Shown here piece after piece: positions 35,042 to 53,912 of a DNA stretch of 64,000 nucleotides (positions are counted from its first letter, which is position 1; each line of letters opens with the position of its first letter). The notes beneath the pieces were generated by a model. The model worked only from the letters and a program-made list of their open reading frames with translations, did not search any database and was not told the origin of the DNA. The DNA is from Calditrichota bacterium (lineage in GTDB: Bacteria > Calditrichota > Calditrichia > Calditrichales > Calditrichaceae), in contig JAJRSO010000061.1 in the NCBI GenBank assembly GCA_024278755.1, positions 1 to 64,000 of the forward strand, read 5' to 3'. A program made the translations under genes and the position numbers.

Positions 35042-37774
35042 ATGAAACGATTTATCTATGCATTAATAATCCAACTCTGTCTTTTATCCGTTGCCTTTTC
35101 AGGAACGACAGGCAAATTAGCCGGCAGAGTTATTGATGCGGTTACTAAAGAACCCATTGCCGGCGCAAATATTATACTGTAAGGAACCATGAGAGGAGCC
35201 TCAACGGATGTGGACGGGGAATATTACATTATTAATATTCCGGCCGGGCGGTATACCGTTACCGTGTCCTATGTAGGCTATCAGGGAATTAAACACCCGA
35301 ATGTGAATATACTTATCGATCAGACCACCAAACTTAATTTTCAGTTATCTGAAGATATCTCCGAGGCAGAAACGATTGTTGTTACGGCAGAGAGCTTTAA
35401 AGTCCAGAAAGACGAAGTAACAAAGAAGATTACAATTCAGAGTGAAGATATTCAGGCCATGCCGGTTCAGGATTTTTCGGAACTTGTTACTGCGCAGGCG
35501 GGTATTATTCAGATTGAAAGTAGTGTGCGCGGTATCAGCGGATTCGAGGACCGTGGAATTGAAGAAATTCATGTGCGCGGGGGGCGTTCCGGTGAAATCG
35601 GATATACGATTGACGGAATGTATATAACCAATCCCTTTTACGGACATAAATATTCGTGGACCCAGCTAAACGATTTTGCTCTGGAACAGGTCGATATAAA
35701 AACCGGCGTCTTTGATGCCGAATACGGCGGCGCCATTTCAAGCATGATTAATATGATTACCCGTGACGGTGGAGATAAACTTGAGGGAAACCTCCGTATT
35801 AGAACTTCCAATCCGGGACGATTGTTTAACCCGGCTACTTTTTTCAGTAAAGATAAAAGCGCGCCGTTTGATATCGGTTTAAGGCAAGATTATTTGCGCG
35901 ATAACCGTTTGATTTCCGGTGGTTTTGGCGGTCCGGTTCCGTTTACCAACAATAAATTAAAGTTTATTGTTACCGGCCATAAACAGCGTTCTTCCTACGG
36001 AGTATGGGAATTTGATAATAAAACTTTTAATACGGCCGATCCCTATAATTTGGATAATGAATTTGTAAATCAGCTTGATACCATTGCCGGCTGGCGGGCC
36101 ATGGGTTTTCGTACCGGCTGGGATCTCTATTCAAAATTAAGCTGGCGTATTAATAACTCTATGAAGCTGGATTTTTCCGCTTGGAACCTGGAAACCGTAT
36201 TCCGGACGATGAACCTTGCCAATTTCGGCTATTTGTATTACGAAGAAGGCCGCAATATAGATACGCAGACATCTGACAGGCAAGCGTTGATGTTTAACCA
36301 CCAAATTTCCAAAAGTGTTTTCTATGATTTGCGCTTCTCCCGGTTTTATCAAAAAATGTTTATCGGTGTGACGGATAATGGAAAAGAAGATGGACGGTAT
36401 TTAGATCCGGATGAATATGTGGCTCCGGAAACGGATATCGACCATTTTGACACGAATCCTTTTTGGTATGAGTTTATTGTATCCGGACATGATCGCTATT
36501 ATCATCAAAACTATGCCGAAACATACGAAGGCTTTGCCAATATTCTGGCACAGGCAACCAAACATCATCAGCTTAAAATGGGCGCCTCTTACCGCCGGCA
36601 TACCATTATGATCGATGAAATTCAGCTCCCCTGGCTTTTAACCCCCTATAAAGAAAAATATAAAAAACATCCCGAAGAGGCGGCAGCTTATATTCAGGAT
36701 CTGATTGAATACGATTATATGACGATTCATCTTGGATTGCGGTTGGATATGTTTAATTCCAATCATGAATATTGGGACGATCCCTATGCGGTTGATAAAA
36801 AGTTAGTTAAATCGCAATGGAAATATCATCTGAGCCCGCGTCTGGGTTTTTCGCATGTTATTACGGATAATGCAACCTTTACATTTGGGTACGGAAAATT
36901 TACACAGCTACCCACCTATCGTAACCAGTATATCAATGCGGAACGTGATATTAAAACCTACTCGCCGATTGTCGGAAATTCCGGCTTAAGCATGGAAGAT
37001 ATGACCGCGTACGAATTTGGCGTGAACATGGGCGTTGATGATCATACTATCGTTCAGGTAATAGGCTGGTCAAAAGAATACTCTAACTTAACCTCAACGG
37101 AACGGATACCACAATTTCCGTATTCCTATACAACCTTCTTAAATACCGATTACGCAACGGCCCGCGGCATGGATATTGTTGTCCGTCGGCAGGTGCCGGG
37201 AAAATATTCGGCTATTTTGCAGTATACGTATTCACGCGCAACTGCTAACCGTCCCGATCCCTGGGAAGGATATCGTTCTACTCAAACAACGCGTACGATG
37301 CCAAAACGTGAAATCCTGATGGGCTATGATCGGTCTCATGACATTAGTTTAATACTTTCTTATCAGATAAATAAGAGTGAAGGGCCTGCTCTGTTTGGAT
37401 TCCATCCGTTTGAACGCACACGGCTTAACATAATGTCGATGGCGCTTAGCGGCTGGCCTTATACCCCTGTGCTGGGTACGGTTGCGGGAGAGACAAATTC
37501 CGAGCGGGGGCCTTGGAATTTTACGACCAATTTTAACTTACGCCGCTATTTTAATGTATACGGCGTAGATATGATTTTTGGAGTTATGGTTCAAAATGTG
37601 TTTGACCGTAAAAACGAAATTGATATATGGCCTTCCACAGGAACCGCTTCGGATCCCGGGCTCCGTTTAAACCGTTTGGTTGAAATGGGTATCTACTCCA
37701 AAACAATGTTTGATCGGCCCTTTATGTATGGCCGCAGAAGACAAATTGATTTTTCATTGGAAATTGCGTTTTAA
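35042..37774 (+). pseudogene. TonB-dependent receptor of module A, interrupted by in-frame TAA at codon 47
   Basis: Full length would be 910 residues. From ATG 35042: signal peptide (MKRFIYALIIQLCLLSVAFS), then a carboxypeptidase-regulatory-like domain (GKLAGRVIDAVTKEPIAGANIIL), a TAA at 35180-35182, and then the same frame continues (GTMRGASTDVDGEYYIINIPAG) through the plug (EEIHVRGGRSGEIGYTIDGMY) and a 22-strand-type barrel ending in LEIAF. The intact paralogue at 45864 has Gln47 (CAA) at the matching position. An ATG at 35189 could restart translation using AAGGA within the stop context, but the product would lack a signal peptide. No other frame disruption is visible. It is either a recent pseudogene or read through; the substrate is unknown. 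Confidence 0.8.
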
Positions 37775-37789
37775 AGAAAGGTACGTATA

Positions 37790-40700
37790 GTGACACGTTT
37801 TATAAAAATACTTGCCATATTGCTGTTTGGTACATGGATGCTTCTTTTTGCCGAACATCCGATAAAAAAACAGAGCGGAACAGCGCTTTTAAAAGCACCG
37901 GATGATCCGCTTATCAGCAGAGCCAGGGCCTACCTGGATAAAGGAAAACTTAAGATTGCCGTTCAGAACTACGGCCGTTTTGTAGATTGGGATGTATTCC
38001 CGGCTGCCGCCTGGGGTAATTTTACCTATATCCCGGATGTCTCGCTAATGGTGGGCATTCCCGGAAAGGATAAAAACGGAAATCCCTACCCCTGGGCTGT
38101 TGGAAAAAAAGAGATGTATATCATACAGGATAATGATTTTAAAACGTTTGGTTCCGATACCACCTATTGGGGGCCAACCGTTTCGGAATCGTGGATGGAT
38201 CGTACACCGAATTCCAATCGTGTGGACTGGGAATCGAAAGCGGAATCCCAGATTTACCTGCACAATCCTCTGATTACGGCAGGTAAATACTTTGGAGAAC
38301 AGGGCTTATATACTTATCCCGAAGATCAATATCCGCTGATTGCCACCAGTGATATTCCCGAGACATGGCCTGTCCGAGTAAATGCGCTGGGCGAAGAAGA
38401 ACCGTTCTGGCCAGGGCCGTTTGCATCGGATCCGTCAGATACGTCGGATACGCCGAAAGAACTTAAAGGTGTTTTTGTATCCGATCAGGATATCTATTTT
38501 GAATTTGACGATCGCTTTGCCACCCGCGATATTGATACGACCCAGGGCTATCCCATCGGCATTCGCGCTACCGTTTCCGCTTATTCATATAGCGCCAGTA
38601 TTTCCGAAGATATTGTCTTTTTTAAGATGTATCTGCATAACGATTCGCAGTGGGATTACGAAGGCGTCTATGGCGGTTTCTATTTTGATGGTGACTCCTA
38701 TAATACCGATTTAAACGGTATTCGCTGGCGTCAGACCAACGAAGATGATATGATGGGTTATAATACCGATCAGGATTTTGGATATATTTACGATCTGCTG
38801 GGCGGCTCGGAATATCCCGAAACAAACGGAGAACCATTAGCCTATGCGGCTGTTAAATTACTGGAAACACCTAAAGCAACCGAACCGGTTGATTTGGATG
38901 ATGATGGTTTTGATGATATTCAGATTGGCGATCCCCTGGGTTTAACCGGCTGGCACTGGTTTAGCTGGTATGTGCGTCCGGGCGCTAAAGACGGCGGCGT
39001 AAATGGGCCTTTCTCCGGCGATGGACAAACGCCCTACCAGGCAAATAAAGAAGAAATTCAATATAAAATAATGGCCGGCGATACAATGGGCATTACCGCC
39101 AGCGATCAGGAAAACTATTTCCATCCCCGGAAATATAAAGTTGGCGAAGCCATTGTCTCCGGTGAAACAAATCCGCGTTTTGATTCCATCGAGGGGTTGT
39201 TGCTTGATTATCCGCAGGGTTTGGATTGTGTATTTATTATGTCCTCCGGGCCTTTTAGCATAGCCTCCGGTGATTCTGTCCCTTTCTCGTTCGCCGTTAT
39301 TATGGGGCAAGATACGGCCGATTTGCGTATCAATGCGGATGTGGCTCAACTTATGTATGACAATAATTACCAGGGCGCCCGCGCTCCGGTGGCTCCGGTT
39401 GTTACGGCCAAAGAGAGTGATCGCGAAATAACCTTATATTGGAATTCAGAATCTACCGAGGATGAAGACATTATTACCGGTTATCAGGATTTTGAAGGTT
39501 ATCGTATCTATAAGAGCACCGATAACGGAAAAACCTGGGGTAAAAGACAATTTGATCCGCAGTCCGGCACGGAATATTGGGAGCCGATAGCACAATACGA
39601 CCTGGATAATGAGATAAGTGGGTATGAACCGCTTCCGCCCAGACGTTATCTTGGCTCTAATACAGGTTTGTCTTTTAAATTTACGGGTACCGATGTGGAA
39701 AACGGCGTTTAATATCTTTACGCGGTCTGTGCTTACGACCGTGGTTTTATCCCTGGAAATCCGCTCTATGATCCGGATGATAAAGCGACTGAGTTAGGAC
39801 TGACCTTCGAAATTCCATCACTCGAAAACCTGCTTTCTAACAGCTCATATCTGGACCATATTGTAAAAGTAATCCCGCATCGGGGCGCCAGTAATACGGT
39901 TTTAGAAAACTTAAAAGTCGAAAAACTACCGGGAACTATCGGAACCGGCGTCTTTAATGTAGAAGTTGTTTCTCCGCCGCTGGTTACGGGCGATACCTAT
40001 GAGATCCATTTCGATTCCGAATACATGGATGTAGATAGCACACAGCTTGTTCCCGGTTCTCAGACATATTCCATTATCAATACCGTTTCCGGAGATACGC
40101 TGGTTAAAGACAGCAAACAGTATTCAACGGATGAAAAACAGGTAGCGCCTCCTATTTATGACGGTATCAGTTGGATGATTAAAACCAGCCGGGATATTTC
40201 CGTTAATTTGGATGATGTATACTGGAAAGAGGGTTCCGTTGGTACCTATCGCTTTAGCTCATTGAAATTTAATTCAAATACAGTAAAGACACGCAGCGAT
40301 TACGAAATTCGATTTTTTAACGAACCGGTTGATTCTGTTTTTAGAAGAAATCCTGGCGGCAGGCTATTGCACTTGGTTCCATTTCAGGTATGGAATACGA
40401 TAACCCATCACAAGGGTACGCTTGTTTCATTGCGCGGGGACGAATGGAATCAGCAATATACCTATCAGGTATACGAAGATACACTTCCGGATATCGCCGG
40501 CAACGAAATTAAGACTCTTGTGTTTAAATGGGAATGGATTGAACCGGGAACCGTGGATCCGAATACCGGGGAAACGCTACCCGCGGATACTCGCCCGCAA
40601 GAGGGAGATGTTATGGTTATTCCGGTACGTAAACCGTTTGAGCATGGCGATGTTTTTCGTGTTCAGTCCGATGATGTGTTTAAAGTGGAAGCCGTAAAAG

Positions 40701-41002
40701 ATACAACACTTGATAATGTTAAGGTGGTTCCCAATCCCTATATTGTACATGCTTCCTGGGAGAAGGATGACTTTGTCAGGAAATTACAGTTTACAAATTT
40801 ACCGGATAAGTGCTGGATTCACATTTTTACCGTTGTTGGTGAGCGTGTGATAAAAATCCGTCACGAAAGTTCCAGTGATGGTAGTGAGGACTGGAATTTA
40901 CTTACATCCAACCGGCAGGATGCTGCCCCCGGATTGTACGTTTATGTGGTGGAAGCCGATAATGGTAAAAAGATTACCGGCAAATTTGTACTTATCAAAT
41001 AG
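37790..41002 (+). pseudogene. Large T9SS-CTD protein of module A, interrupted by in-frame TAA at codon 641
   Basis: GTG start at 37790 with AAAGG about 8 bases upstream, and a signal peptide (FIKILAILLFGTWMLLFA). The coding frame runs 640 codons, meets TAA at 39710-39712, and continues in the same frame to 41002 (1070 codons in all). The frame after the stop reads YLYAVCAYDRGFIPGNP, which aligns with TYYFAVTAYNYNSDPNVP of the intact paralogue at 48865, both following an Asn-Gly. It has a fibronectin-III-like part (APVVTAKESDREITLYWNS) and a C-terminal sorting-type domain (VVPNPYIVHASW...GKFVLIK). Truncation would remove the sorting domain. Function unknown. Confidence 0.8.
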
Positions 41003-41010
41003 GAGTGGAC

Positions 41011-42030
41011 ATGAAATTTAAATTGACATTGACTGCATTTCTCGTTTTGAATGTTTCGTTGTTTGCTCAGGGCGAGTTATCAAAAGTCGCAACGGGTACG
41101 GCCCAGTTTCTTAAAATTGGGATTGGCTCCCGTGGCATAGCGCTTGGTGATGCTTACACGGCATTGGCGGACGGCGTACATTCCATGTATTGGAATCCGG
41201 CCGGCATTCAAAAAATAGGACATACGGCAGTTGCCGTTTCTCAGTTGGATTTATATGCGGTAATTAAGCATAGTTTTATCGGAGCGGTTGCGCCGATTGA
41301 TGAAAACACGACCATTGGGGCTTCGTTGCTGTATCTTTCGTCCGGTGATATTGAACGAACGACAATTGCAGAACCGGAAGGGACCGGGTCGTATTTTTCT
41401 ACCTCGCACATGGCCTGGGGATTAACCGTCTCACGCAGAGTTACGGAACGTTTTAGTTTAGGTGTTACCATAAAATATATATCCGAACGGTTAGATATGG
41501 CGGAAGCTTCTACCGCTGCTTTTGATATCGGTTCTCAGTTTGACACCGGTATTTATGGCCTGAAGATAGGAATGGTTCTGGCAAATTTTGGCGGTAAAAT
41601 GAAATTTGACGGAGCAAATTTAAACTACGAACAGGATAACGAACTAACCGGAATTTCTTACCCGACCGGCGCCCGTTTAAGAACGGAGGAATGGCCGATT
41701 CCGCTTTTGTTCCGCCTGGGGATAGCATTGGATGTTATGGGAAAAGACTCGGAAATATTTAGCAGTGAAAGAAACAGAATTACACTGACTATGGAGGGGA
41801 ATGACCCGGTAGACAATGTGCTGCATTACAATTTTGGCGCCGAATACGAATGGAATAGTATCTTTGCGATTCGTGCGGGGTACAAAGAAAATTACGACGA
41901 AGCAGGATTTACCGCAGGCGTAGGGTTGGATTTTACCAAAATAGGCATTGGCGCCCGTTTGGATTATGCCTATAACGATGTTGGTTTATTAGGCAAGATA
42001 CATAATTACAGCCTTGAGTTTTCTTTTTAA
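41011..42030 (+). CDS. PorV/PorQ-like outer-membrane barrel of module A
   Basis: A 339-residue protein starting at ATG 41011 (AGGAG 5 bases upstream, overlapping the previous stop TAG). Signal peptide KLTLTAFLVLNVSLFAQ, then the family opening TAQFLKIGIGSRGIALGDAYTALADGVHSMYWNPAGI. The rest is an amphipathic-strand barrel ending in LEFSF. In T9SS systems such barrels bind or shuttle cargo; this one is probably the partner of the large CTD protein next to it. Paralogues are at 12156, 52875 and 62121. Confidence 0.8.
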   Translation: MKFKLTLTAFLVLNVSLFAQGELSKVATGTAQFLKIGIGSRGIALGDAYTALADGVHSMYWNPAGIQKIGHTAVAVSQLDLYAVIKHSFIGAVAPIDENTTIGASLLYLSSGDIERTTIAEPEGTGSYFSTSHMAWGLTVSRRVTERFSLGVTIKYISERLDMAEASTAAFDIGSQFDTGIYGLKIGMVLANFGGKMKFDGANLNYEQDNELTGISYPTGARLRTEEWPIPLLFRLGIALDVMGKDSEIFSSERNRITLTMEGNDPVDNVLHYNFGAEYEWNSIFAIRAGYKENYDEAGFTAGVGLDFTKIGIGARLDYAYNDVGLLGKIHNYSLEFSF

Positions 42031-42185: not shown

Positions 42186-45100
42186 ATGAAGTTTAAACTG
42201 TTACTACTTGGTCTGCTGATTATCGGGCAATCAGTATTTGCAAAGGATATTTATCATAAAAATATTGCTTTGTTTTGTTTGAACAAAGAGATGCCCCAGC
42301 TGGAAGTAAAAAATAATAATGGGCATCCGGAAACCCAATTTGCATGGCTAAACGAAATGATTGCTAAGTATAATATTTCCGAGATTAGCCGCTGGATAAC
42401 CTCTGCCGACGAACGCGATGTGGACGGCGATGTTAAATTAATGAATATCTACCGCGCTGTTTTTGCAGAAGACAGAGATATTCCGGAACTGGATGGTATC
42501 ATCGATGAATTCCGGGCGGTCGATGATGTATATGGCGCCTATAAAGAGGGTATTTATCGTGTTGAAAGCACACCTTATACACCCAATGACCCGCGTTATG
42601 ACGAACAATGGTATGTAACAAAAATTATGGCCGATTATGCCTGGGGGCTGTTTAGCGGAACTCCAGGCGACCCGGATATTCTGGTTGGTGTAGTGGATAC
42701 CGGCGTGGATACCGAACATCCTGAATTTGACGGTGTGCTTTATGTAAATCCCGGGGAAGACATAAATCATGATGGCGTATATACCAGTGCCGATAACAAC
42801 GGCGTGGACGATGATCTCAACGGTTATGTGGATGATGTGGTCGGTTGGGATTTTGCCGATAATGATAACAATATCCGGCCGCCCGATGTGGGAACCACCC
42901 ATGAATTAAGCCACGGCACGCATGTGTCCGGCGCTATCAGCGCTTTGCCGGATAATAATGAAGGTATTGCCGGTGTCTCTTTTAGAAGTAAAATTATTGC
43001 CACGAAACATTCACAGGATGGCGATTACACTCAACCGGCTCTTTACTCTACGTATGATGGTATTACCTATGTTTCCAAAATGGGTGCAAAAATAATTAAC
43101 TGTTCCTATGGGTCATCCGGTTCAAATCCCTTCGAACAAAATGCGATTAACAATGCCGTAAATAATTACGGTTGTATTGTTGTTTGTGCCGCAGGAAATG
43201 ATGGAACTGACAACGATGTCTCTCCGCATTATCCAAGTGATTATAGTAATACCATTGCCGTTGCGGCCACTACTTCCGGGGACGTAAAATCAAGTTTTTC
43301 CAACTATGGAAGCGTAATTGATATAAGTTCGCCCGGCTCTGCAATTTTAAGCACCATTCATTGGAATGCCGGAGGGTATGAAACTTGGGACGGGACATCA
43401 ATGGCCAGCCCGATAGCGGCCGCCTCTTATGCCTTGCTTTGGGCATATTATCCAACCTGGAGCAGAACCGATATTATCGATCGTATTGCGGCGTCTGCAG
43501 ACTATATTGATGATTTGAACCCTGACTATGCGGGTCAATTAGGCGCCGGAAGGGTAAATCCTTATAATGCCATCGCCCAATCGATTTTTCCAAACCTCCA
43601 TTTAGACAGTTATAATTACACACTGATTTCGGATCCCAATGGAGACGGGCAGCTGAATCCGGGAGAAAATGCAAGCCTGCATATTACGCTTATGAACGAC
43701 GCCGGTTGGCAGGATGCAACCGGAACCAATGTTGTGCTTTCTTCTACCTCTTCCTATATCTCATTTCCGGACGGCAATGCAGCAATGGGCACAATTACTG
43801 CCGGGTCGACCAAAGAAAATACCAGTGATGCGCTGGAATTTTTAATTGATGCGGACGCACCGCTTACTCCCATAACAATTACACTTACCATTACAGCTAA
43901 TCAATCCGGTTCGGATCCGTACGAAACGACCGAAACACTTGAGGTTACTCCAACCTTAAACCAAATCGGTTTCCCGACATTGAGCACGAATATCATTAAC
44001 CCGGTTGCGGTGGACAGTCTTTATGCCTCTTTATCTGACCAGATAGCCGTCATCGACCAAAGCGACAGCTTATATTTAGTAAATAACGATGGCTCACTTG
44101 TTTCCGGTTTCCCTGTTTATGTAGGCTTTGTAAAAGGCGCGCCGGTCGTTGCGGATGTTGATAATGACGGACAAAAAGAAATTATTGTTGTTGAACGCGG
44201 CGGAGAGCTGCGCATTGTAGAACGGGATGGAACTATTTCGTTGTTACATGATGTTGGTCAGACTACCGACGGCGATATTGCCGTTGCCAACATGGACAGC
44301 GATCCGGAACTGGAAATTGTTTTTGGTACAAGCTCCCGTGATTTACATGCGATTAATATAGACGGGACGGAAGTTTCTGGTTTCTGGTTTGATGTAGCGG
44401 GCCGTATTACAAAAGGAGTTGCTTTGGCAGATTATACCGAAGACGGAATTCCGGAACTGGTATACGGACTGTCCAATGATGAGTTACATGCTCAGAAAAC
44501 TGATGAAACGGAATTACCCGGCTTCCCGATTGATTTGCTTGACCGTCTGGATGTTTCCCCGGTTGTCGTGCATATTACAGATAATGCAAGTTCGCAAAAT
44601 GATTATTTTATCTTTGCCGCCACCGGAGCGGATACGCTCTTCCGAATTAATATGGATGGTGGTGTCATTGAATCAAAATATTATTACGGTTCGACAATGA
44701 ATTCAGCGCCGGCAGTGGCAGATATAAATAAGGATGGCCAGTTGGAAGTGGTCTTTGGTACCGACGACGGAAATCTGCATGCTGTTAAATTTGACGGTAC
44801 TTCACTATCAAATTTTCCCATTCAGTTAAACGGCTCCATTATTTCCTCTCCTGTTTTTGCCGATTTTGACAATGACGGAACCATCGAAATTGTAATTGGA
44901 ACGGAATTGGGACATATGTATGTTTTGCATAGCGATGGTTCAAACTATCGTAATTTCCCGGCTGACTTTGACACCCACCAGGATGGCTCGCCGGCCATTG
45001 CTGATATAGATAATGACGGTGATCTGGAAATTATTGTTGGCACAGGCACAGGTTTAAATGCCATTGATGTTCAGGGCACAAAATATGAAGATGGATTATG

Positions 45101-45467
45101 GCAGACCTACCTGTCCAATAATCAGCGTACAGGTACCTATCATTATATTCAGGGTGCAAGTGCCATTCAGGATAAACCTTCTGTTCTTACAGAATTTTCG
45201 TTACATCAAAATTATCCAAATCCGTTTAATCCCAGTACGGTAATAAGCTATCAATTACCTTCGTCCGGGTTGGTTAACGTATCTGTTTATAATGTTCTGG
45301 GGCAGGAAGTTAGTACACTGCTTAACGAAGAACAAAATGCCGGAATGCATACGGTTACCTTTAATGCTGCCGGTTTTGCCAGCGGAATATATATCTATAA
45401 GCTGCAATATCGCTTAGAATCGGGTACGGTAAAAGCATTACAACGTAAGATGCTTCTTATGCGTTAG
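42186..45467 (+). CDS. Secreted subtilisin-like serine protease (S8) with VCBS-type repeats and T9SS sorting domain
   Basis: A 1093-residue exported protease. Signal peptide KFKLLLLGLLIIGQSVFA, a prodomain-like part, then the S8 catalytic triad: Asp171 in VVDTGVD, His243 in HGTHVSG, and Ser405 in GTSMASP, with GNDGTDN as the oxyanion-Asn region. A Ca-binding-like loop DINHDGVYTSADNNGVDDDLNG precedes the His. After residue ~600 come FG-GAP/VCBS-like repeats (VADVDNDGQKEIIVVERGG and similar), then a type A sorting domain (HQNYPNPFNPSTVISYQLP ... KMLLMR). It should degrade protein at the cell surface. GAAGGAAGAAG lies before the ATG. A terminator follows. Confidence 0.9.
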   Translation: MKFKLLLLGLLIIGQSVFAKDIYHKNIALFCLNKEMPQLEVKNNNGHPETQFAWLNEMIAKYNISEISRWITSADERDVDGDVKLMNIYRAVFAEDRDIPELDGIIDEFRAVDDVYGAYKEGIYRVESTPYTPNDPRYDEQWYVTKIMADYAWGLFSGTPGDPDILVGVVDTGVDTEHPEFDGVLYVNPGEDINHDGVYTSADNNGVDDDLNGYVDDVVGWDFADNDNNIRPPDVGTTHELSHGTHVSGAISALPDNNEGIAGVSFRSKIIATKHSQDGDYTQPALYSTYDGITYVSKMGAKIINCSYGSSGSNPFEQNAINNAVNNYGCIVVCAAGNDGTDNDVSPHYPSDYSNTIAVAATTSGDVKSSFSNYGSVIDISSPGSAILSTIHWNAGGYETWDGTSMASPIAAASYALLWAYYPTWSRTDIIDRIAASADYIDDLNPDYAGQLGAGRVNPYNAIAQSIFPNLHLDSYNYTLISDPNGDGQLNPGENASLHITLMNDAGWQDATGTNVVLSSTSSYISFPDGNAAMGTITAGSTKENTSDALEFLIDADAPLTPITITLTITANQSGSDPYETTETLEVTPTLNQIGFPTLSTNIINPVAVDSLYASLSDQIAVIDQSDSLYLVNNDGSLVSGFPVYVGFVKGAPVVADVDNDGQKEIIVVERGGELRIVERDGTISLLHDVGQTTDGDIAVANMDSDPELEIVFGTSSRDLHAINIDGTEVSGFWFDVAGRITKGVALADYTEDGIPELVYGLSNDELHAQKTDETELPGFPIDLLDRLDVSPVVVHITDNASSQNDYFIFAATGADTLFRINMDGGVIESKYYYGSTMNSAPAVADINKDGQLEVVFGTDDGNLHAVKFDGTSLSNFPIQLNGSIISSPVFADFDNDGTIEIVIGTELGHMYVLHSDGSNYRNFPADFDTHQDGSPAIADIDNDGDLEIIVGTGTGLNAIDVQGTKYEDGLWQTYLSNNQRTGTYHYIQGASAIQDKPSVLTEFSLHQNYPNPFNPSTVISYQLPSSGLVNVSVYNVLGQEVSTLLNEEQNAGMHTVTFNAAGFASGIYIYKLQYRLESGTVKALQRKMLLMR

Positions 45468-45485
45468 CCCGGTAAGATACCTTTT

Positions 45486-45531
45486 AAAAGCCTTTTGGGG
45501 CGGATAAAACCGCCTTAAAAGGCTTTTTTTA
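45486..45531 (+). terminator. Intrinsic terminator after the subtilase gene
   Basis: An 18-bp stem (45486-45503 with 45510-45527, two G-U pairs), loop ATAAAA, then a T run. It separates the subtilase from module B. Confidence 0.88.
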
Positions 45532-45712
45532 TATTAAAAGTATATAATTATCTTGCGCTAAATCAATATTTATACGATATTACAAGCCGTTATAGAAGAA
45601 AATAACCTAACCGGGGAATTTCAACGGCCTGATCTTACCCCGCTTTTTTAATAAAATTCAGCAGGATGCACTTATTAAAGGTGTCTGCCGTGCAGTTTAC
45701 CGTACATAAACC

Positions 45713-45742
45713 TTGACAATAGAGGTGCTTATATTATATATT
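45713..45742 (+). promoter_or_regulatory. Sigma70-type promoter of module B
   Basis: TTGACA (45713-45718) and TATATT (45737-45742) with an 18-base spacer; both hexamers are identical to those of the PorV-like gene promoter at 11949. Expected start near 45750, giving a ~115-base leader. Confidence 0.6.
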
Positions 45743-45798
45743 TTCGCTTGTGATGAAGCGCACAGATTAACCCGATTTAAAATATCAGGAGGTGGTGT

Positions 45799-45807
45799 AT
45801 GACATAA
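45799..45807 (+). promoter_or_regulatory. Two-codon leader frame (ATG-ACA-TAA) with strong ribosome site
   Basis: AGGAGGTGG at 45788-45796 sits just before ATG ACA TAA, 60 bases upstream of the receptor start. A ribosome site this strong in front of a minimal frame could hold a ribosome or influence leader folding. Chance is possible. Confidence 0.25.
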
Positions 45808-45863
45808 TAGGAGTGTGTACTATATTTTTTTTACTGAACTGTTAAATTAATGGAGGTTAAGGG

Positions 45864-48827
45864 ATGTTCAAAAAAGTGCTTTTATTACTTTTGACCTTAG
45901 CTATGCCGATTTTTCTTTTTGCTCAGTCGACGGGTAAAATAATGGGTGTAGTTAAAGACAAAGATACCGGCGAGCCATTGCCTGGTGTTAATGTTATAAT
46001 TCAAGATACTTACTTTGGTGCTACTACAGACATCGATGGGTATTATGTAATCCTCAATGTTCCTGTAGGTGCTTTTAGTGTTGAAGCCAGTTATGTTGGT
46101 TACACGAAAGCCATCTATAAGAATATCCGCGTTTCTGCGGGGCAAACCACAGAACAAAATTTCGAGTTACAATCAACCACTTTGGAACTGGGTGAGGCTG
46201 TTGTAGTTACCGCAGAGCGGCCGCTTGTTGAAAAACATGTTACCCAGAGTGTTGCCAAGGTAAACTCCGAACAATTAGATGAGCTTCCGGTTCGCGGTAT
46301 TACTGCCGTTCTGGCGTTGCAGCCCAGTGTTGTTGTTCAGGATGGCGCGCTGCATATCCGTGGCGGTCGTTCTGATGAAGTTGGTTATTATCTGGATGGC
46401 GCATCAACGGTGGATCCTGTTTCGAATACAAATGCAGTTTACGTTATTCATGATGCTGTAGAAGAAATTCAGGTTCTGGCCGGCGGATATACGGCCGAAT
46501 TCGGTGGCGCTAATTCTGGTATCGTCCGTTCGGAATTACGTTCCGGTACCCGTGACTATCGTCTTTCTCTTGATTTTCAGACTGACAAATTTGTTGGTAT
46601 TGGTGAAGAATTTCTTGGTACACAATCCTGGAATGATCATATTTTAATCGGAACGTTTAGCGGCCCCTTAGGCACAGACAAAATAAGACTTTTTGCCGCA
46701 GTTGAAAACAATTTTGAAGGTGATTTTCAAAAACGTTTCACAAAAAGTTTCCGTTTCAACGAAAGTAATTTACAAAATCCGCTGATTGATGATCAGCGCG
46801 GTAGTAAAACATTTGGCGATACAATTCCTGAATTGTATTATCCAAACTATACACCGGATAATCAGCGTAACCGCTGGACGGTTAACAGTACTTTGCTGTT
46901 TGATTATAATCCAATTCAGGTTCGCATAAGCGCTTTGTATAACCAGCGTACATATACAAATGACGGGCTTCCTGTGTTGCATATCCTGAATGACAGAAAT
47001 CAATACACAGACGCTCGTAACTTACTGCTTAGCGCAAAACTGACGCATATTCTAAATCCGACTTCTTTTTATAATTTAAAAGTAAGTTATTTTGATGATT
47101 ATGCCGAACGTAAAGATGATTATTTTGGCAGTGACTGGCGTTCCTGGTCGGATAGTGCCAAAGTATACGAACATACTAATGGCGATGTCGTTTTTCGCGA
47201 TGCGGCGCACGGAAATTATTCCTACCTGCTTAATGGATTTTCCTTTAGCCAGGATGGTACATTAAAGAGCGGCTGGTATAATAAAAACTCACAGAACTAT
47301 ATTTCCGGTTCTATGAACTATGTAAGCCAGATTAATCGTCATAATGAAATTAAAGCCGGCTTTGACGCCCGCTATTATACGGTGCGCAATTTCTCTATTT
47401 ATACACCGACGGCTTTAGACAGAACACAGTTTTATGGTAGTGAAGAAGCTGTGCCTGTTGCTGCCTGGGCCGAAGCGCTTGGTTCACGGAACTATGGCTA
47501 TGACCGTTTTGGCAATGAGACCGATAAGGGTCAGGATGCCGCGCGTACGCCGTTATTTGCTTCCTTTTATATTCAGGATAAAATCGAATTTGACAACCTG
47601 ATTATCAATGCCGGTCTGCGGTACGATTATTTTGATACCGATGATAAAACACTCATCCATCCCGATGATCCGGCAGTAAACGAAGCAGAAGCCTTGATTA
47701 AAGATGAGGCCTGGAGAGATCTGGATCCGTTCCAGTATATTAGCCCTCGTTTGGGAATGTCTTTCCCCATTAGTGAAAAAACGGTATTCTATACTCAGTA
47801 TGGCCGTTTTGTTCAAACACCGAAACTAAGCCATATCTACCGTAGTTATAACGAACTTGGTACTCAGATTGTAACCGCAGGTAACTACTATACTGCGCCG
47901 ATTGCATACGGTTTAGAGCCGATTGAGACCACTTCCTATGAAATTGGTTTCCGTCAGCAAGTGGGCGAAGTGGCCTCGTTTGATATTACAGGTTTCTATA
48001 AAAACCTGAAAGGTCAGATTGGTTCGGACAGGGTTACAGCAGCGCCTAACTCATCAATCCAGACCTATGACCGTTTGGCAAATGGCGATTTTGCGACTAC
48101 AAAAGGTCTTGAGTTTAAGATGATTATGCGTCGGTTTAACCGCCTTCAGGCACAGTTAAATTATACGTACACCATCGCCGAAGGAACCGGCTCCGGTGAA
48201 AATTCATACCATGCCGCTTCTTATCGTAATACGGCAAAACCCACGATTACATCTCCGCTTGATTATAACCAGAAACACCGTGGTTCTATAAATCTGGATT
48301 ATCGTTTTGGTGAAAATGACGGTGGCCCGATTTTCTCAGGATTTGGCGCTAACTTGTTATACACATTCTCAAGTGGGCATCCGTTTACCTTGGTGGATTT
48401 CTCTTTAGGTCAGGTAAATGGGTATGATGCCGGCGTTAATTATATGAGTGATACGCGTTCCCGTGAAGCTTTGGAGCCTATTAACAGCTCGTCAACTCCA
48501 TGGACTTCTAATATTGATCTCCGTCTCGATAAATCCTTTAAGGTGTTAGATAATCTTAAAGCCCAGGTATATGTGCGCGTTACCAATCTGTTAAATACGA
48601 AAAACATCATCAACGTATTTCAGGCCACAGGCAGCGCTCAGGATGATGGTTTTATCAATGATCCTACCAAAGCTGAGAGTTTTATCAATACCTATGGCGG
48701 CCAGGATTATATAGATATGTATAAGGCTATTAATCTTGAAAATGGCCAGGCATATTGGAGTGCAACCGGAATGCAGTTATACGGTAATCCACGTCAGGTT
48801 ATGGTTGGCATGAAGTTAATTTACTAA
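45864..48827 (+). CDS. TonB-dependent receptor of module B (intact)
   Basis: A 987-residue outer-membrane receptor. Signal peptide FKKVLLLLLTLAMPIFLFAQ, a carboxypeptidase-regulatory-like domain (residues ~22-105: GKIMGVVKDKDTGEPLPGVNVIIQ, with Gln47 encoded CAA), a plug domain (HIRGGRSDEVGYYLDGAS; TAEFGGANSGIV) and a long beta-barrel ending in MVGMKLIY. The domain order is that of SusC/OmpA-type receptors, but no SusD is adjacent; instead a giant CTD protein and a PorV-like barrel follow. TGGAGG precedes the ATG. Likely energised by TonB; substrate unknown. Confidence 0.88.
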   Translation: MFKKVLLLLLTLAMPIFLFAQSTGKIMGVVKDKDTGEPLPGVNVIIQDTYFGATTDIDGYYVILNVPVGAFSVEASYVGYTKAIYKNIRVSAGQTTEQNFELQSTTLELGEAVVVTAERPLVEKHVTQSVAKVNSEQLDELPVRGITAVLALQPSVVVQDGALHIRGGRSDEVGYYLDGASTVDPVSNTNAVYVIHDAVEEIQVLAGGYTAEFGGANSGIVRSELRSGTRDYRLSLDFQTDKFVGIGEEFLGTQSWNDHILIGTFSGPLGTDKIRLFAAVENNFEGDFQKRFTKSFRFNESNLQNPLIDDQRGSKTFGDTIPELYYPNYTPDNQRNRWTVNSTLLFDYNPIQVRISALYNQRTYTNDGLPVLHILNDRNQYTDARNLLLSAKLTHILNPTSFYNLKVSYFDDYAERKDDYFGSDWRSWSDSAKVYEHTNGDVVFRDAAHGNYSYLLNGFSFSQDGTLKSGWYNKNSQNYISGSMNYVSQINRHNEIKAGFDARYYTVRNFSIYTPTALDRTQFYGSEEAVPVAAWAEALGSRNYGYDRFGNETDKGQDAARTPLFASFYIQDKIEFDNLIINAGLRYDYFDTDDKTLIHPDDPAVNEAEALIKDEAWRDLDPFQYISPRLGMSFPISEKTVFYTQYGRFVQTPKLSHIYRSYNELGTQIVTAGNYYTAPIAYGLEPIETTSYEIGFRQQVGEVASFDITGFYKNLKGQIGSDRVTAAPNSSIQTYDRLANGDFATTKGLEFKMIMRRFNRLQAQLNYTYTIAEGTGSGENSYHAASYRNTAKPTITSPLDYNQKHRGSINLDYRFGENDGGPIFSGFGANLLYTFSSGHPFTLVDFSLGQVNGYDAGVNYMSDTRSREALEPINSSSTPWTSNIDLRLDKSFKVLDNLKAQVYVRVTNLLNTKNIINVFQATGSAQDDGFINDPTKAESFINTYGGQDYIDMYKAINLENGQAYWSATGMQLYGNPRQVMVGMKLIY

Positions 48828-48864
48828 TTAAATGTTCATGTGATAGATTTTTAGGAGTATATAT

Positions 48865-51800
48865 ATGGTAACCAAAAATAAAAAAATCCCCTTCCTCTTA
48901 ATGATAGGGATTTTAATATTGGCGTTTGCGTCCGGCCTTATGGCAAGACAAAATCCTGCTGCTGTATCAGATCAGGCTTTTGCAAAAGCGGCCGCAGATA
49001 AATATTCAAGAACATTATTCAATATTTCGAACTGGGCATATTGGTTGTATTATGACGGTATGTCTGCACAAACTCCTAACGGAGATTCCGGCGGTATCTA
49101 TCCGCGGGGAACAACCGGCGTCATTTTTACAGACGGTATCGTTTGGGGTGGTTATGTACAGGATGGAGACGCTTCAAAACCCTCCCTTCGTGTTGGCGGC
49201 CAGACCTATAATATCGGTACAACGCCGGGTTGGATTGAAACAGCAGGCGACGGTGTAAATCCTCCTGTTGCTATTTCTGCGGATGACCCGAGAGCGCGTA
49301 TCTATAGAATCCGCCAGGATTACACCTCTTTGGTTTCCCTTGATAAAGATGGTAATAAGGTATATTCGGCAGCGCTTAAACAAGATGCCGCCGATGTAAA
49401 CTTTAAAAGCAGTGAAGCCGTAACTCCGGAAGATATGGACGCTGTTATGGCCCAGTATGAAACCGACTGGAAAGAATGGCCGGTTGATTTAGGCGCTCCT
49501 TACTATGATGAAAATGGTAACGGCGTTTATGATCCGGTTCTGGTTGACGGTATTCCTCAAATTGGTGTTTGGGATGCAACGACCAGTTCGTATAGCGAAT
49601 ATTACGATCGTCCGGGAACTGCCGGCGCCGATCAGGTTATTTGGTTTGTCGTAAATGACTTAACGGAAGCCAGAACACTTAAACTGTATGGTTCCCCTCC
49701 TATGGGTATGGAATTACAGGTTACGGTTTGGGGATACAACCAGCCGAATTCCACTTTGGGACAAATGCTGTTTAAAAAATTCAAGTTCATCAATAAATCA
49801 GGATATGACATTGATTCTATGTTTGTAGCACAATGGTCTGACCCCGATTTAGGAAATTATGCAGATGACCTTGCCGGTTGTGATATTGACCTGAGTTTAG
49901 GTTTTGCCTATAACGGTTTCCGTACCGATTCTCAGTTTGACCCGTTTGGTTTACCACCCGCAGCCGTTGGATATGACTTTTTCCAGGGCCCAATGGTGGA
50001 CGGCGTTGCCGGCCAGGATTTAAACCACAATGGCGTGGATGATGCTGATGATTATGCTGTATTCGGTTTGGAAAGACAAGGCCCGGGTAAGATCAATCTT
50101 CCCATGACCAGTTTCTTGTATTTTGCCGCCGGTAGCCCTATTTCCGATCCGGATTTAGGAGAATATGAATCTACCAAAGAGTGGTACAATATGCTCAACG
50201 GTTTTACGCCGACTCCGGACTTAGATAATCCGACTCCGTATACCGTTCAAAATGTTAAAAACGGAACGCCTACGTTATATCCCTTGTCCGGTGATCCTTT
50301 CCTCGGAACGGGAGATGTGGACGGACAGAGCACAAATCTGCCTCCTGGTGATCGCCGTATCGGTTTGGCGTCTGGTCCATTTAATATGGCGCCCGGTGAC
50401 GAACAGGAACTGGTTGTTGCCGTTGTAGGCGGTATTATTAATCAAACTGGCGGCGACAACAGAAATGCTGTTGCTCAGTTAAAACTGAACGATGCTTATG
50501 CGCAGTTCTTATACGATAAACTGTTTGCCGGTGTACCGAGTCCTCCTAAGGCGCCTCAGGTAACCGCTAACGAATTTGACGGAAATGTAACTTTCGACTG
50601 GGGTTCTGATGCGGCCGCAGTTGCCGAAACAGAACGCGACGATCCTGTTTTAGGGTTTAATTTCCAGGGTTACAATGTGTATCAGTTACCGTCGGAAACA
50701 GCAAGTAAAGACCAGGCCAAATTAGTGGCAACTTATGACATTGTGGACCGCGTTGGTATTATCCGCGCGAAACAATTTTTGCCTTCCTTTGGCGATGTTG
50801 TGACGGTTCCGGTTCAATATGGTACCGATTCCGGCATTAAGAGATATCTGAATATTGATCATGATTATATCAATGATCTGCCTCTTTATAACGGACAAAC
50901 CTATTACTTTGCAGTAACGGCTTATAACTATAATTCGGACCCGAATGTACCCGAGCAGTCGCTGGAATCGGCCTTAACGCCGATTGCCGTAATTCCTCAG
51001 CCGAAAACGCCCGGTTATTCCGATGGTTCTGCCACAGATGAGCAGATTGCAAATGCACATTCGGCAGGCGTTTCGGAACAAGCCACACTGAAGATTAATG
51101 TGGTTGACCCGGCAAAAATTACCGGCGATGATTACAAATTGTTTTATGAATACTGGCACTATTATATGGATGTTGACGGAAAATGGAAACGCACTGCCTA
51201 TCCGGATTCTGTTGCACCCGTTGCAAAAGCCGGTGATGTTTCGCCGAGTTCGTTTAGTGCCATTGCCTATACGAGTCCTACTCCGGGAACAAGGGACTTA
51301 AAATTTATCCTTGATTTAGTTTCCCCGGATTATGATTATTCGGACGGTGTTTCATTTACTTTTCCGCCCGAAGTGACCATTAACAGCGCCGAAACCGTTG
51401 TCGGTAACGGGGACGGTAATCCGCATGATGCGATTATTGACGAAGCGACCAATACGGTTACCTGGGGTTCGCCCGATACAACCGGTTTTGGCCCCTTCTC
51501 CGGTGGCGAAGTATTTACCATTAATGTGAATACGCCGACCCTTCCCTTAGACGTTGATTATATTATCTTTGACGATGGCTGGGGATTTTACTTCCTCGCT
51601 AACTATGGCCTGCCTCCCGGCGTTGTAATATTCGGTACGGGTACGGTAACCATTTCCGAAGAAGCTTATGCTTTTAAAACGGTTCCCACATGGAATCTGG
51701 AAGATGTAACCACCGGTGAAATAAAACTGGCCGGTCAGGAACATATGTATACTTCCGCTGACGCCATGAGCGCACCGATTGTGGATGGTTTCCAGATTAT

Positions 51801-52833
51801 CGTAGGCGGTAGCTATGATGCGCCTATGGATTTTTCAAGCGCAATAGTTACTCGTCTTGACGGCACAACAGAAGAAGTTGGTGATTTTGGTCATGCTGGT
51901 TCCGGCATTGGCAGCTATGGCTTTTATGGCTGGGCCGCCTCTGCACGTTCCATCGATGCAGAAGGCCATGGTACAACCGATCTGAATACACTGATTAAGG
52001 ACTATGAAATTCGCTGGACAGGTGAATTTGATACCACCGATGTTGGTGGCGTCACTATCATTACGGTGAAAGACGGCACGGGATCAATGGCGTATTTAAG
52101 CGGCGCCCGCGGTTACAGCTTAGCGGATCATCCGTTTAATCCCAATCCGGGAACGGACGCTCCGTTTATGGTGCGTGTTCCGTTTGAGGTATGGAATGTA
52201 GATGATAATGTTCAGATAAATATTAATATCTACGATCGTAAAGGTGACCCGACGACAGGTGAATTCCAGGCATGGAATCCGCATGACAGGATGTACACCA
52301 ACTTCATCAATACGCCTTATAGTGATGATTTAGCTACGGTTTCCGGCGCGCTGGATGAGCAGACCTGGAACCTGGTATGGTGGGATTCTGAATTAGCAAA
52401 GGGAGAGAAAGTTTATATTAAATACGCCAATCCGATTATTATCGGATCGGATGAATTTTCATTCTCAACCGCTGGTTTAGGTGAATCCTTCAGCGAAGAC
52501 AGAGTGGCTGAAGATGTTGGTAATGTGGGTGTATTCCCGAATCCGTATTATGCATACAACCCGGCAGAACCCAATCGTTTCACCAGGTATGTTACGTTTA
52601 ATCACTTAACACCTACAGCAACCATAAGAATCTTTGATTTAGCGGGAGCACTGGTGCGTAAATTAGATAAAGACGACCCGAGTCAGTTCCTGCGCTGGGA
52701 TTTACGCAACGAATCTGATATCCCTGTCGCAAGCGGCATTTATATTGCGCATATCGACATGCCCGAAGCGGGTAAGACCAAAATACTTAAGGTCTTCATC
52801 GTTCAGGCACAAGAAATGCTTAAGTTTTATTAA
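48865..52833 (+). CDS. Giant secreted T9SS-CTD protein of module B
   Basis: A 1322-residue protein with a signal peptide (IPFLLMIGILILAFASGLMA). The N-terminal part (NWAYWLYYDGMSAQTPNGDSGG; a large DEN-rich region with LNHNGVDDADDYAVFG) is not recognisable as an enzyme. A fibronectin-III-like region near residues 555-720 (APQVTANEFDGNVTFDWGS ... NGQTYYFAVTAYNYN) is shared with the interrupted paralogue at 37790. The C-terminal ~100 residues (VFPNPYYAYNPAEPNRFTRYVTF ... SGIYIAHIDMPEAG ... KVFIVQ) resemble a sorting domain, with an atypical tail AQEMLKFY. Probably surface-attached and the cargo partner of the PorV-like protein. TTAGGAG before the ATG. Confidence 0.75.
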   Translation: MVTKNKKIPFLLMIGILILAFASGLMARQNPAAVSDQAFAKAAADKYSRTLFNISNWAYWLYYDGMSAQTPNGDSGGIYPRGTTGVIFTDGIVWGGYVQDGDASKPSLRVGGQTYNIGTTPGWIETAGDGVNPPVAISADDPRARIYRIRQDYTSLVSLDKDGNKVYSAALKQDAADVNFKSSEAVTPEDMDAVMAQYETDWKEWPVDLGAPYYDENGNGVYDPVLVDGIPQIGVWDATTSSYSEYYDRPGTAGADQVIWFVVNDLTEARTLKLYGSPPMGMELQVTVWGYNQPNSTLGQMLFKKFKFINKSGYDIDSMFVAQWSDPDLGNYADDLAGCDIDLSLGFAYNGFRTDSQFDPFGLPPAAVGYDFFQGPMVDGVAGQDLNHNGVDDADDYAVFGLERQGPGKINLPMTSFLYFAAGSPISDPDLGEYESTKEWYNMLNGFTPTPDLDNPTPYTVQNVKNGTPTLYPLSGDPFLGTGDVDGQSTNLPPGDRRIGLASGPFNMAPGDEQELVVAVVGGIINQTGGDNRNAVAQLKLNDAYAQFLYDKLFAGVPSPPKAPQVTANEFDGNVTFDWGSDAAAVAETERDDPVLGFNFQGYNVYQLPSETASKDQAKLVATYDIVDRVGIIRAKQFLPSFGDVVTVPVQYGTDSGIKRYLNIDHDYINDLPLYNGQTYYFAVTAYNYNSDPNVPEQSLESALTPIAVIPQPKTPGYSDGSATDEQIANAHSAGVSEQATLKINVVDPAKITGDDYKLFYEYWHYYMDVDGKWKRTAYPDSVAPVAKAGDVSPSSFSAIAYTSPTPGTRDLKFILDLVSPDYDYSDGVSFTFPPEVTINSAETVVGNGDGNPHDAIIDEATNTVTWGSPDTTGFGPFSGGEVFTINVNTPTLPLDVDYIIFDDGWGFYFLANYGLPPGVVIFGTGTVTISEEAYAFKTVPTWNLEDVTTGEIKLAGQEHMYTSADAMSAPIVDGFQIIVGGSYDAPMDFSSAIVTRLDGTTEEVGDFGHAGSGIGSYGFYGWAASARSIDAEGHGTTDLNTLIKDYEIRWTGEFDTTDVGGVTIITVKDGTGSMAYLSGARGYSLADHPFNPNPGTDAPFMVRVPFEVWNVDDNVQININIYDRKGDPTTGEFQAWNPHDRMYTNFINTPYSDDLATVSGALDEQTWNLVWWDSELAKGEKVYIKYANPIIIGSDEFSFSTAGLGESFSEDRVAEDVGNVGVFPNPYYAYNPAEPNRFTRYVTFNHLTPTATIRIFDLAGALVRKLDKDDPSQFLRWDLRNESDIPVASGIYIAHIDMPEAGKTKILKVFIVQAQEMLKFY

Positions 52834-52874
52834 TGGCCAATTGTGAATCAAGTATAAGTAAAGGGAGACCTATA

Positions 52875-53912
52875 ATGATAAAGAAAAAAACACTTAGCGG
52901 ATTTGTACTCTTCGCTATAATATTAATGATGACGTACACTGCGGGCATCGCCGGTGATACAGACCGGATTGGTACTGCAGCGGGTGTTCAGGTTCTGGTT
53001 CCAACCGGGGCCAGAGATATATCCACCGCAGGTTCGAATATGGCTTTTACCAGCGGTATCCATGCCATTCATTGGAATCCGGCTGGATTATCCAGAATGC
53101 AGAATTCAGCCGCAGGACAGTTCTCTACGATGACTATTTTTAATGACATCAAGGTTAATTATCTTGCAGTAGGCGCTAAAATGGGCGGTCTCGGTGATTT
53201 TGCGTTTAGCATTAAAGCATTTGATTTTGGTGATATACCTATTACAACGCGGGAAGATATGGACGGCCTTAGCGGCTCTACTTTCTCTCCCACATTTGTA
53301 ACAACAACCTTAACCTATGCTAACAGCCTGACCAACGCGATTCGTGTGGGAGTGAATGCAAAGTTTGTCTATGAAAGTATTCCTTCTGCATCGGCAAGCG
53401 CTGTTGCTTTTGATATCGGCCTTCAATACGATGGTTTGGCCGGCATTGAAGCGCTGTCTTTTGGCGTGGCAGTGAAAAACATCGGTAGCGGTTTAAATTA
53501 TACCGGTTCCGGTTTAACCAGCGAAGTTCTTGATGCCTCCGGACGTTCGGATTTTCTGAGCCGTGAAGCTTCAACGAATGACCTGCCGGCTTCTTTTGAC
53601 ATCGGTGTTGGTTATAAACTGGCAATTGATGAAAAAAGCAACATGCTTCTGTCTTCGGCATTTGTCAATAATAACTTTGGCTATGACGAGCTCAGGTTAG
53701 GTGCGGAATATAGTTTTAATAACTTTATATTCCTGCGCGGTGGTTACAATTATGGTGTTGAGCAACCAGCAGACGATCAGCTGTATACTTTTTCTCTGGG
53801 TGCAGGCATTAACTACAATCTCGGTGGCGTCAATCTGGCTATCGATTATGCGTACCGCGACTCACAGTTTTTTGATGCAAACAACATGTTTGGATTAACA
53901 CTTGGTTTCTAA
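52875..53912 (+). CDS. PorV/PorQ-like outer-membrane barrel of module B
   Basis: A 345-residue protein. ATG 52875 is chosen (GGGAG 7 bases upstream and an immediate signal peptide, TLSGFVLFAIILMMTYTAGIAG) over the longer frame from 52833 that overlaps the previous stop. Family opening: QVLVPTGARDISTAGSNMAFTSGIHAIHWNPAGL, then the barrel, ending FGLTLGF. It parallels the module A barrel at 41011 in order, spacing and length, so the pair [large CTD protein + barrel] is probably a functional unit. Terminator follows. Confidence 0.82.
   Translation: MIKKKTLSGFVLFAIILMMTYTAGIAGDTDRIGTAAGVQVLVPTGARDISTAGSNMAFTSGIHAIHWNPAGLSRMQNSAAGQFSTMTIFNDIKVNYLAVGAKMGGLGDFAFSIKAFDFGDIPITTREDMDGLSGSTFSPTFVTTTLTYANSLTNAIRVGVNAKFVYESIPSASASAVAFDIGLQYDGLAGIEALSFGVAVKNIGSGLNYTGSGLTSEVLDASGRSDFLSREASTNDLPASFDIGVGYKLAIDEKSNMLLSSAFVNNNFGYDELRLGAEYSFNNFIFLRGGYNYGVEQPADDQLYTFSLGAGINYNLGGVNLAIDYAYRDSQFFDANNMFGLTLGF

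Follow-up and report, generated by a model that had tools for sequence, protein, structure and literature searches.

A conserved Calditrichaceae gene interrupted by an in-frame TAA, probably an oxidative-type base error in a metagenome assembly

Loss of MutY or MutM gives G:C>T:A mutations. The GO system, to which these two enzymes belong, is covered in PMC11078426. Deep human data contain, at low fraction, C:G>A:T sequencing errors that arise from guanine oxidation at DNA shearing (PMC5521083). As for stop codons that acquire a sense meaning, a 2021 screen covering more than 250,000 genomes presents the bacterial reassignments known so far as UGA changes (PMC8629427). For UAA and UAG there is a trypanosomatid precedent, the nuclear code of Blastocrithidia, in which UAR is read as Glu and UAA serves also as a stop (PMC12153298).

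The window analysed here is the whole stretch of 64,000 nucleotides at the start of contig JAJRSO010000061.1. Its gene of interest lies in a module that resembles the neighbourhood of type IX secretion cargo in combining a receptor, a large exported protein and a PorV-family gene. It differs in that the sorting domain falls below the family cut-off and in that the relatives are Calditrichaceae, not Bacteroidota. The features of the module are:

35042-37774, + strand: upstream gene for a TonB-dependent receptor, broken by the first TAA (Pfam CarbopepD_reg and Plug; orthologues uninterrupted)
35180-35182, + strand: first in-frame TAA, inside the TonB receptor gene (GAA in the same-genus relative)
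37790-41002, + strand: single gene of 1070 sense codons and one internal TAA (translation; nine uninterrupted orthologues; TIGR04183, 19.4 bits)
39710-39712, + strand: the in-frame TAA under study (GAA or GAG, Glu, in nine of nine orthologues; GAA in the same-genus relative)
39713-40024, + strand: coding stretch after the stop, with no in-frame ATG, GTG or TTG
41005-42030, + strand: downstream gene of the PorV/PorQ family, uninterrupted (NF033709, 196 bits, above cut-off)

Directly downstream, at window positions 42186-53912, is a second module of similar layout, with a subtilase carrying a sorting domain, a TonB receptor, a large protein and a PorV-family gene, all uninterrupted.

The initial annotation had described a large protein that starts at GTG 37790, stops at codon 641 and is followed by 429 further open codons. 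Translation bears this out: 640 codons precede the stop, and the frame then stays open to a TAG ending at 41002. The same annotation had called the 39713-40024 stretch coding despite its lack of a start codon, and here too it was right. The hexamer score is positive around TAA 39710 with no competing frame, the low dN/dS given below extends past the stop, and the earliest in-frame ATG, GTG or TTG is the ATG at 40025. Translation restart past the TAA was rejected, since 104 codons without a start would have to be bridged. The alignment to the paralogue at 48865, in which NGV*YLYAVCAYD pairs with NGQTYYFAVTAY, is genuine, though weak at 24% identity over 583 residues (E=4e-18). As for the C-terminal sorting-like domain that had also been proposed, it is present, but weak, scoring 19.4 bits against TIGR04183 where the cut-off is 23. 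The product is a large protein of exported type, whose C-terminus weakly resembles a type IX sorting domain.

Orthologues were sought in 60 related genomes and compared over their full length, or as far as their contigs reach. The gene is present in nine members of the same family at 56-86% identity and is interrupted in none of them. A split into two genes at TAA 39710, which the initial annotation had also considered, is therefore rejected; 37790-41002 is a single gene that includes the stretch beyond the TAA. Between the Gln and Glu that had been entertained for the affected codon, the orthologues are unanimous for Glu (9/9, GAA or GAG). The same-genus relative, represented by the Calditrichaceae MAG contig JANTFQ010000027.1, has GAA at both 39710 and 35180, and in more distant relatives the receptor codon is Glu, Lys, Asp or Val. 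On the genomes compared, both TAAs are thus private to this genome, and both are GAA to TAA changes. Because of the TAA at 35180, ORF callers begin the TonB receptor 147 bases late, at 35189.

Selection was measured against the same-genus relative, for which dS is saturated at about 1.5. The dN/dS ratio is 0.08 past TAA 39710 and 0.04 ahead of it, and the whole-gene values are 0.055 for the 37790 gene and 0.019 for the TonB receptor (dS about 1.5), with no frameshifts. Ratios this low show long conservation, but they are compatible with a very recent change.

Stops of the same kind were then found to extend well beyond this module. We scanned 1.478 Mb (about 37% of the genome), using a model of coding hexamers that had been trained on this genome, compared the matches with relatives and removed natural gene ends (e.g. 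L102:9330 and L096:9072). This left 17 in-frame stops that could be resolved against relatives, while about 10 additional likely ones were left uncounted because the orthologous residue was not clear. The stop-bearing genes include glmS, pyruvate kinase, htpG, uvrA, oligopeptidase B and flgE, as well as genes for a GldE/CorC-type protein, a cysteine-synthase-like PLP enzyme and a dihydroorotate-dehydrogenase-like protein; the remaining stops are in the two genes of the window and in six others. Those located elsewhere in the same genome as the window include:

L198:1510-1512: in-frame stop in glmS
L199:11292 and L199:15049: in-frame stops in htpG and pyruvate kinase
L094:6127: in-frame stop in uvrA
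L093:9183: in-frame stop in oligopeptidase B
L205:13395: in-frame stop in the PLP enzyme

Two-way homology scans added at least one further clear stop in this genome (L216:1614, Glu). The closed relative G006 showed no in-frame stop in 400 kb under the identical scan and none in 22,556 aligned codons under the homology scan. Frameshifts were not in excess across the scanned sequence, so assembly errors of the frameshift type were rejected.

This wider distribution bears on the reading of the two TAAs as a joint signal of the module, as the initial annotation had taken them. At a density of about 28 likely stops per 1.48 Mb, any given stop has another within 4.5 kb with a probability of about 0.16; two TAAs in one module are therefore unremarkable, and with similar stops in housekeeping genes across the genome that reading finds no support. 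Decay confined to this module was rejected for the same reason, i.e. the occurrence of like stops elsewhere. An ordinary pseudogene, in which this operon alone had become nonfunctional and gathered two nonsense mutations, would account for both stops lying in adjacent genes. It would also fit the distribution of changes on this branch, which is slightly richer in the part after TAA 39710 (24 against 16) than in the part before it (11 against 19). We nevertheless regard it as very unlikely, given the absence of frameshifts, the low dN/dS throughout and the conserved genes elsewhere in the genome that carry similar stops; moreover, an ordinary mutation spectrum would contain transitions.

The spectrum is in fact confined to one class of change. 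Ten of the 17 resolved stops are TAA in place of GAA. TAG replaces Glu at two sites, Ser at three and Glu or Gln at one, and TGA replaces Gly (GGA) at one. In the GAA group, the ancestral codon was taken from the nearest relative compared, whereas at two Ser sites and one Glu to TAG site it had to be inferred because the relatives vary (Ser/Thr or Glu/Ser/Lys). The pyruvate kinase stop is ambiguous in origin, with Gln (CAA) in the same-genus relative and Glu in G006. A single G:C>T:A step explains all 16 unambiguous sites. Since such steps make up 22-30% of the nonsense opportunities offered by the codon usage, 16 of 16 has a probability of about 4e-9 to 4e-11. Inside the G:C>T:A class, the stops roughly track codon usage. 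A comparison of G:C>T:A missense changes gave 22/139 against 18/112, i.e. no excess, in a test without power; near-identical repeats within the genome likewise offered no power. From the ~17-27 stops over about 50,000 nonsense-capable G:C sites, we infer a rate of about 4e-4 changes per site, or about 700 changes genome-wide. A strictly G:C>T:A spectrum is the mark of oxidised guanine, whether in cells with failed repair or during DNA preparation.

The initial annotation had proposed that TAA 39710 is read through. In its general form, this would be a dual-meaning code in which UAA and UAG terminate genes yet are read internally, chiefly as Glu. The Glu found in relatives at most of the stop sites and the conservation downstream of TAA 39710 would fit such a code, and the trypanosomatid code described in PMC12153298 is a precedent, with in-frame UAA and UAG at Glu positions and UAA also a terminator. 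The Blastocrithidia code differs from the present case, in which in-frame stops are very rare, occur also at Ser and Gly positions, include TGA and have no matching tRNA that we could find. Four sites speak against a Glu code, three Ser and one Gly at a TGA, and a single mutational class explains them all. Of the 594 long genes sampled, 369 end in TAA; prfA and prfB score above cut-off and are uninterrupted, so that RF1 and RF2 are intact; and a stop at this codon occurs in none of the nine orthologues and in no other genome of the family. Among the tRNAs read, which are most of the 46 listed by Rfam, none has a CTA or TTA anticodon. On the remaining Rfam-listed tRNAs, no anticodon matched the UAG anticodon-loop pattern, and the UAA pattern was likewise absent from the remaining tRNAs among the matches listed, one tRNA at C63 lying outside this check. 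A reassignment of UAR to Gln or Glu was rejected on the mixed residues, the intact RF1 and RF2 and the failure to find a matching tRNA. We know of no bacterium with a dual-meaning UAA/UAG code, and we consider readthrough or recoding extremely improbable here; with G:C>T:A stops spread over the genome, mixed residues and no decoding machinery found, the readthrough of TAA 39710 is unsupported.

It remains to ask where such guanine damage would have taken place. One answer is in the cell: TAA 39710 would be a real and recent nonsense mutation in a G:C>T:A mutator lineage, caused for example by a GO repair defect or by heavy oxidative damage in the habitat, and the 37790 gene, the TonB receptor and dozens more genes would be truly broken in the sequenced population. 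The spectrum, with nothing but G:C>T:A, is equally what is expected of MutY or MutM loss and identical to that of GO-system mutators, and uvrA itself bears a stop. These mutators differ from the present genome in that MutY and MutM are both present and apparently intact here. MutM is full-length with its key motifs and has no changes at 54 invariant columns, while MutY, also full-length with its key motifs, has three conservative changes at 63 invariant columns; loss of mutY or mutM was rejected because both genes are intact by length and motifs. We would also expect stops in the middle of glmS, pyruvate kinase, uvrA and flgE to be hard to sustain as the consensus of a free-living population. 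To our knowledge, only glmS among the stop-bearing genes is essential in model bacteria, so that essentiality separates error from mutation only weakly. Overall, a mutator lineage is unlikely, though less so than a pseudogene or recoding; if the stops were true, they would indicate a strong natural G:C>T:A mutator.

The other answer, which we consider the probable one, is that the in-frame stops entered the metagenome assembly as oxidative-type (8-oxoG-like) base errors. It is favoured by the invariance of Glu in the nine orthologues, by the 17 stops here against none in G006, by the restriction to G:C>T:A without an excess of frameshifts and, as regards a mutator, by the full-length MutY and MutM with their motifs. 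The stop, the Glu of the relatives and the genome-wide set of like stops with its exclusively G:C>T:A spectrum are observations, whereas we infer that the changes are errors rather than mutations, and what chemistry underlies them. In the living organism the gene would then be single, ordinary and intact, with codon 641 encoding Glu, and TAA 39710 would be a base-level error in this metagenome-assembled genome, which would contain probably 50-120 nonsense errors and several hundred G:C>T:A errors altogether. The process would act specifically on guanine; the most plausible candidate is oxidation of the 8-oxoguanine type, occurring before library preparation or in the course of it, and its errors would have entered the consensus at places of low read depth. 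In agreement with the 8-oxoG artefacts of PMC5521083, the changes are substitutions only, strictly G:C>T:A and scattered irrespective of gene function, so that glmS, pyk, htpG, uvrA and others are struck regardless of their importance. However, the known artefacts are of low fraction, whereas in the present case a metagenome consensus would have had to take them up, which requires low depth. Contigs of up to 322 kb suggest fair coverage, and this counts against an artefact. A literature search found no paper on guanine-oxidation-type errors in metagenome assemblies.

The initial annotation was therefore correct in its observation of one gene across the TAA, and the stop itself is most probably spurious. 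Read at face value, the assembly would yield dozens of false pseudogenes, truncated proteins or apparent cases of recoding, including a broken glmS, uvrA and pyruvate kinase, and the G:C>T:A nonsense pattern bears on any other finding of a broken gene in this genome. A simple check follows: where all in-frame stops are one G:C>T:A step away from the codon of the relatives, oxidised DNA should be suspected before biology.

Two observations concern the tRNA genes. A selenocysteine tRNA (anticodon TCA) lies at L272:911-1002 (G000:C53), which makes recoding of UGA to selenocysteine likely in this genome; the stops studied here are not explained by it, and selenocysteine at the TGA site was rejected because both relatives have Gly (GGA) there. 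In addition, two contigs carry the same Gln-Arg-Glu tRNA cluster, differently spaced, at L106:15-453 (G000:C2) and L072:1079-1660 (G000:C50); the duplicate may be a second locus, or it may come from another strain by way of a stray contig.
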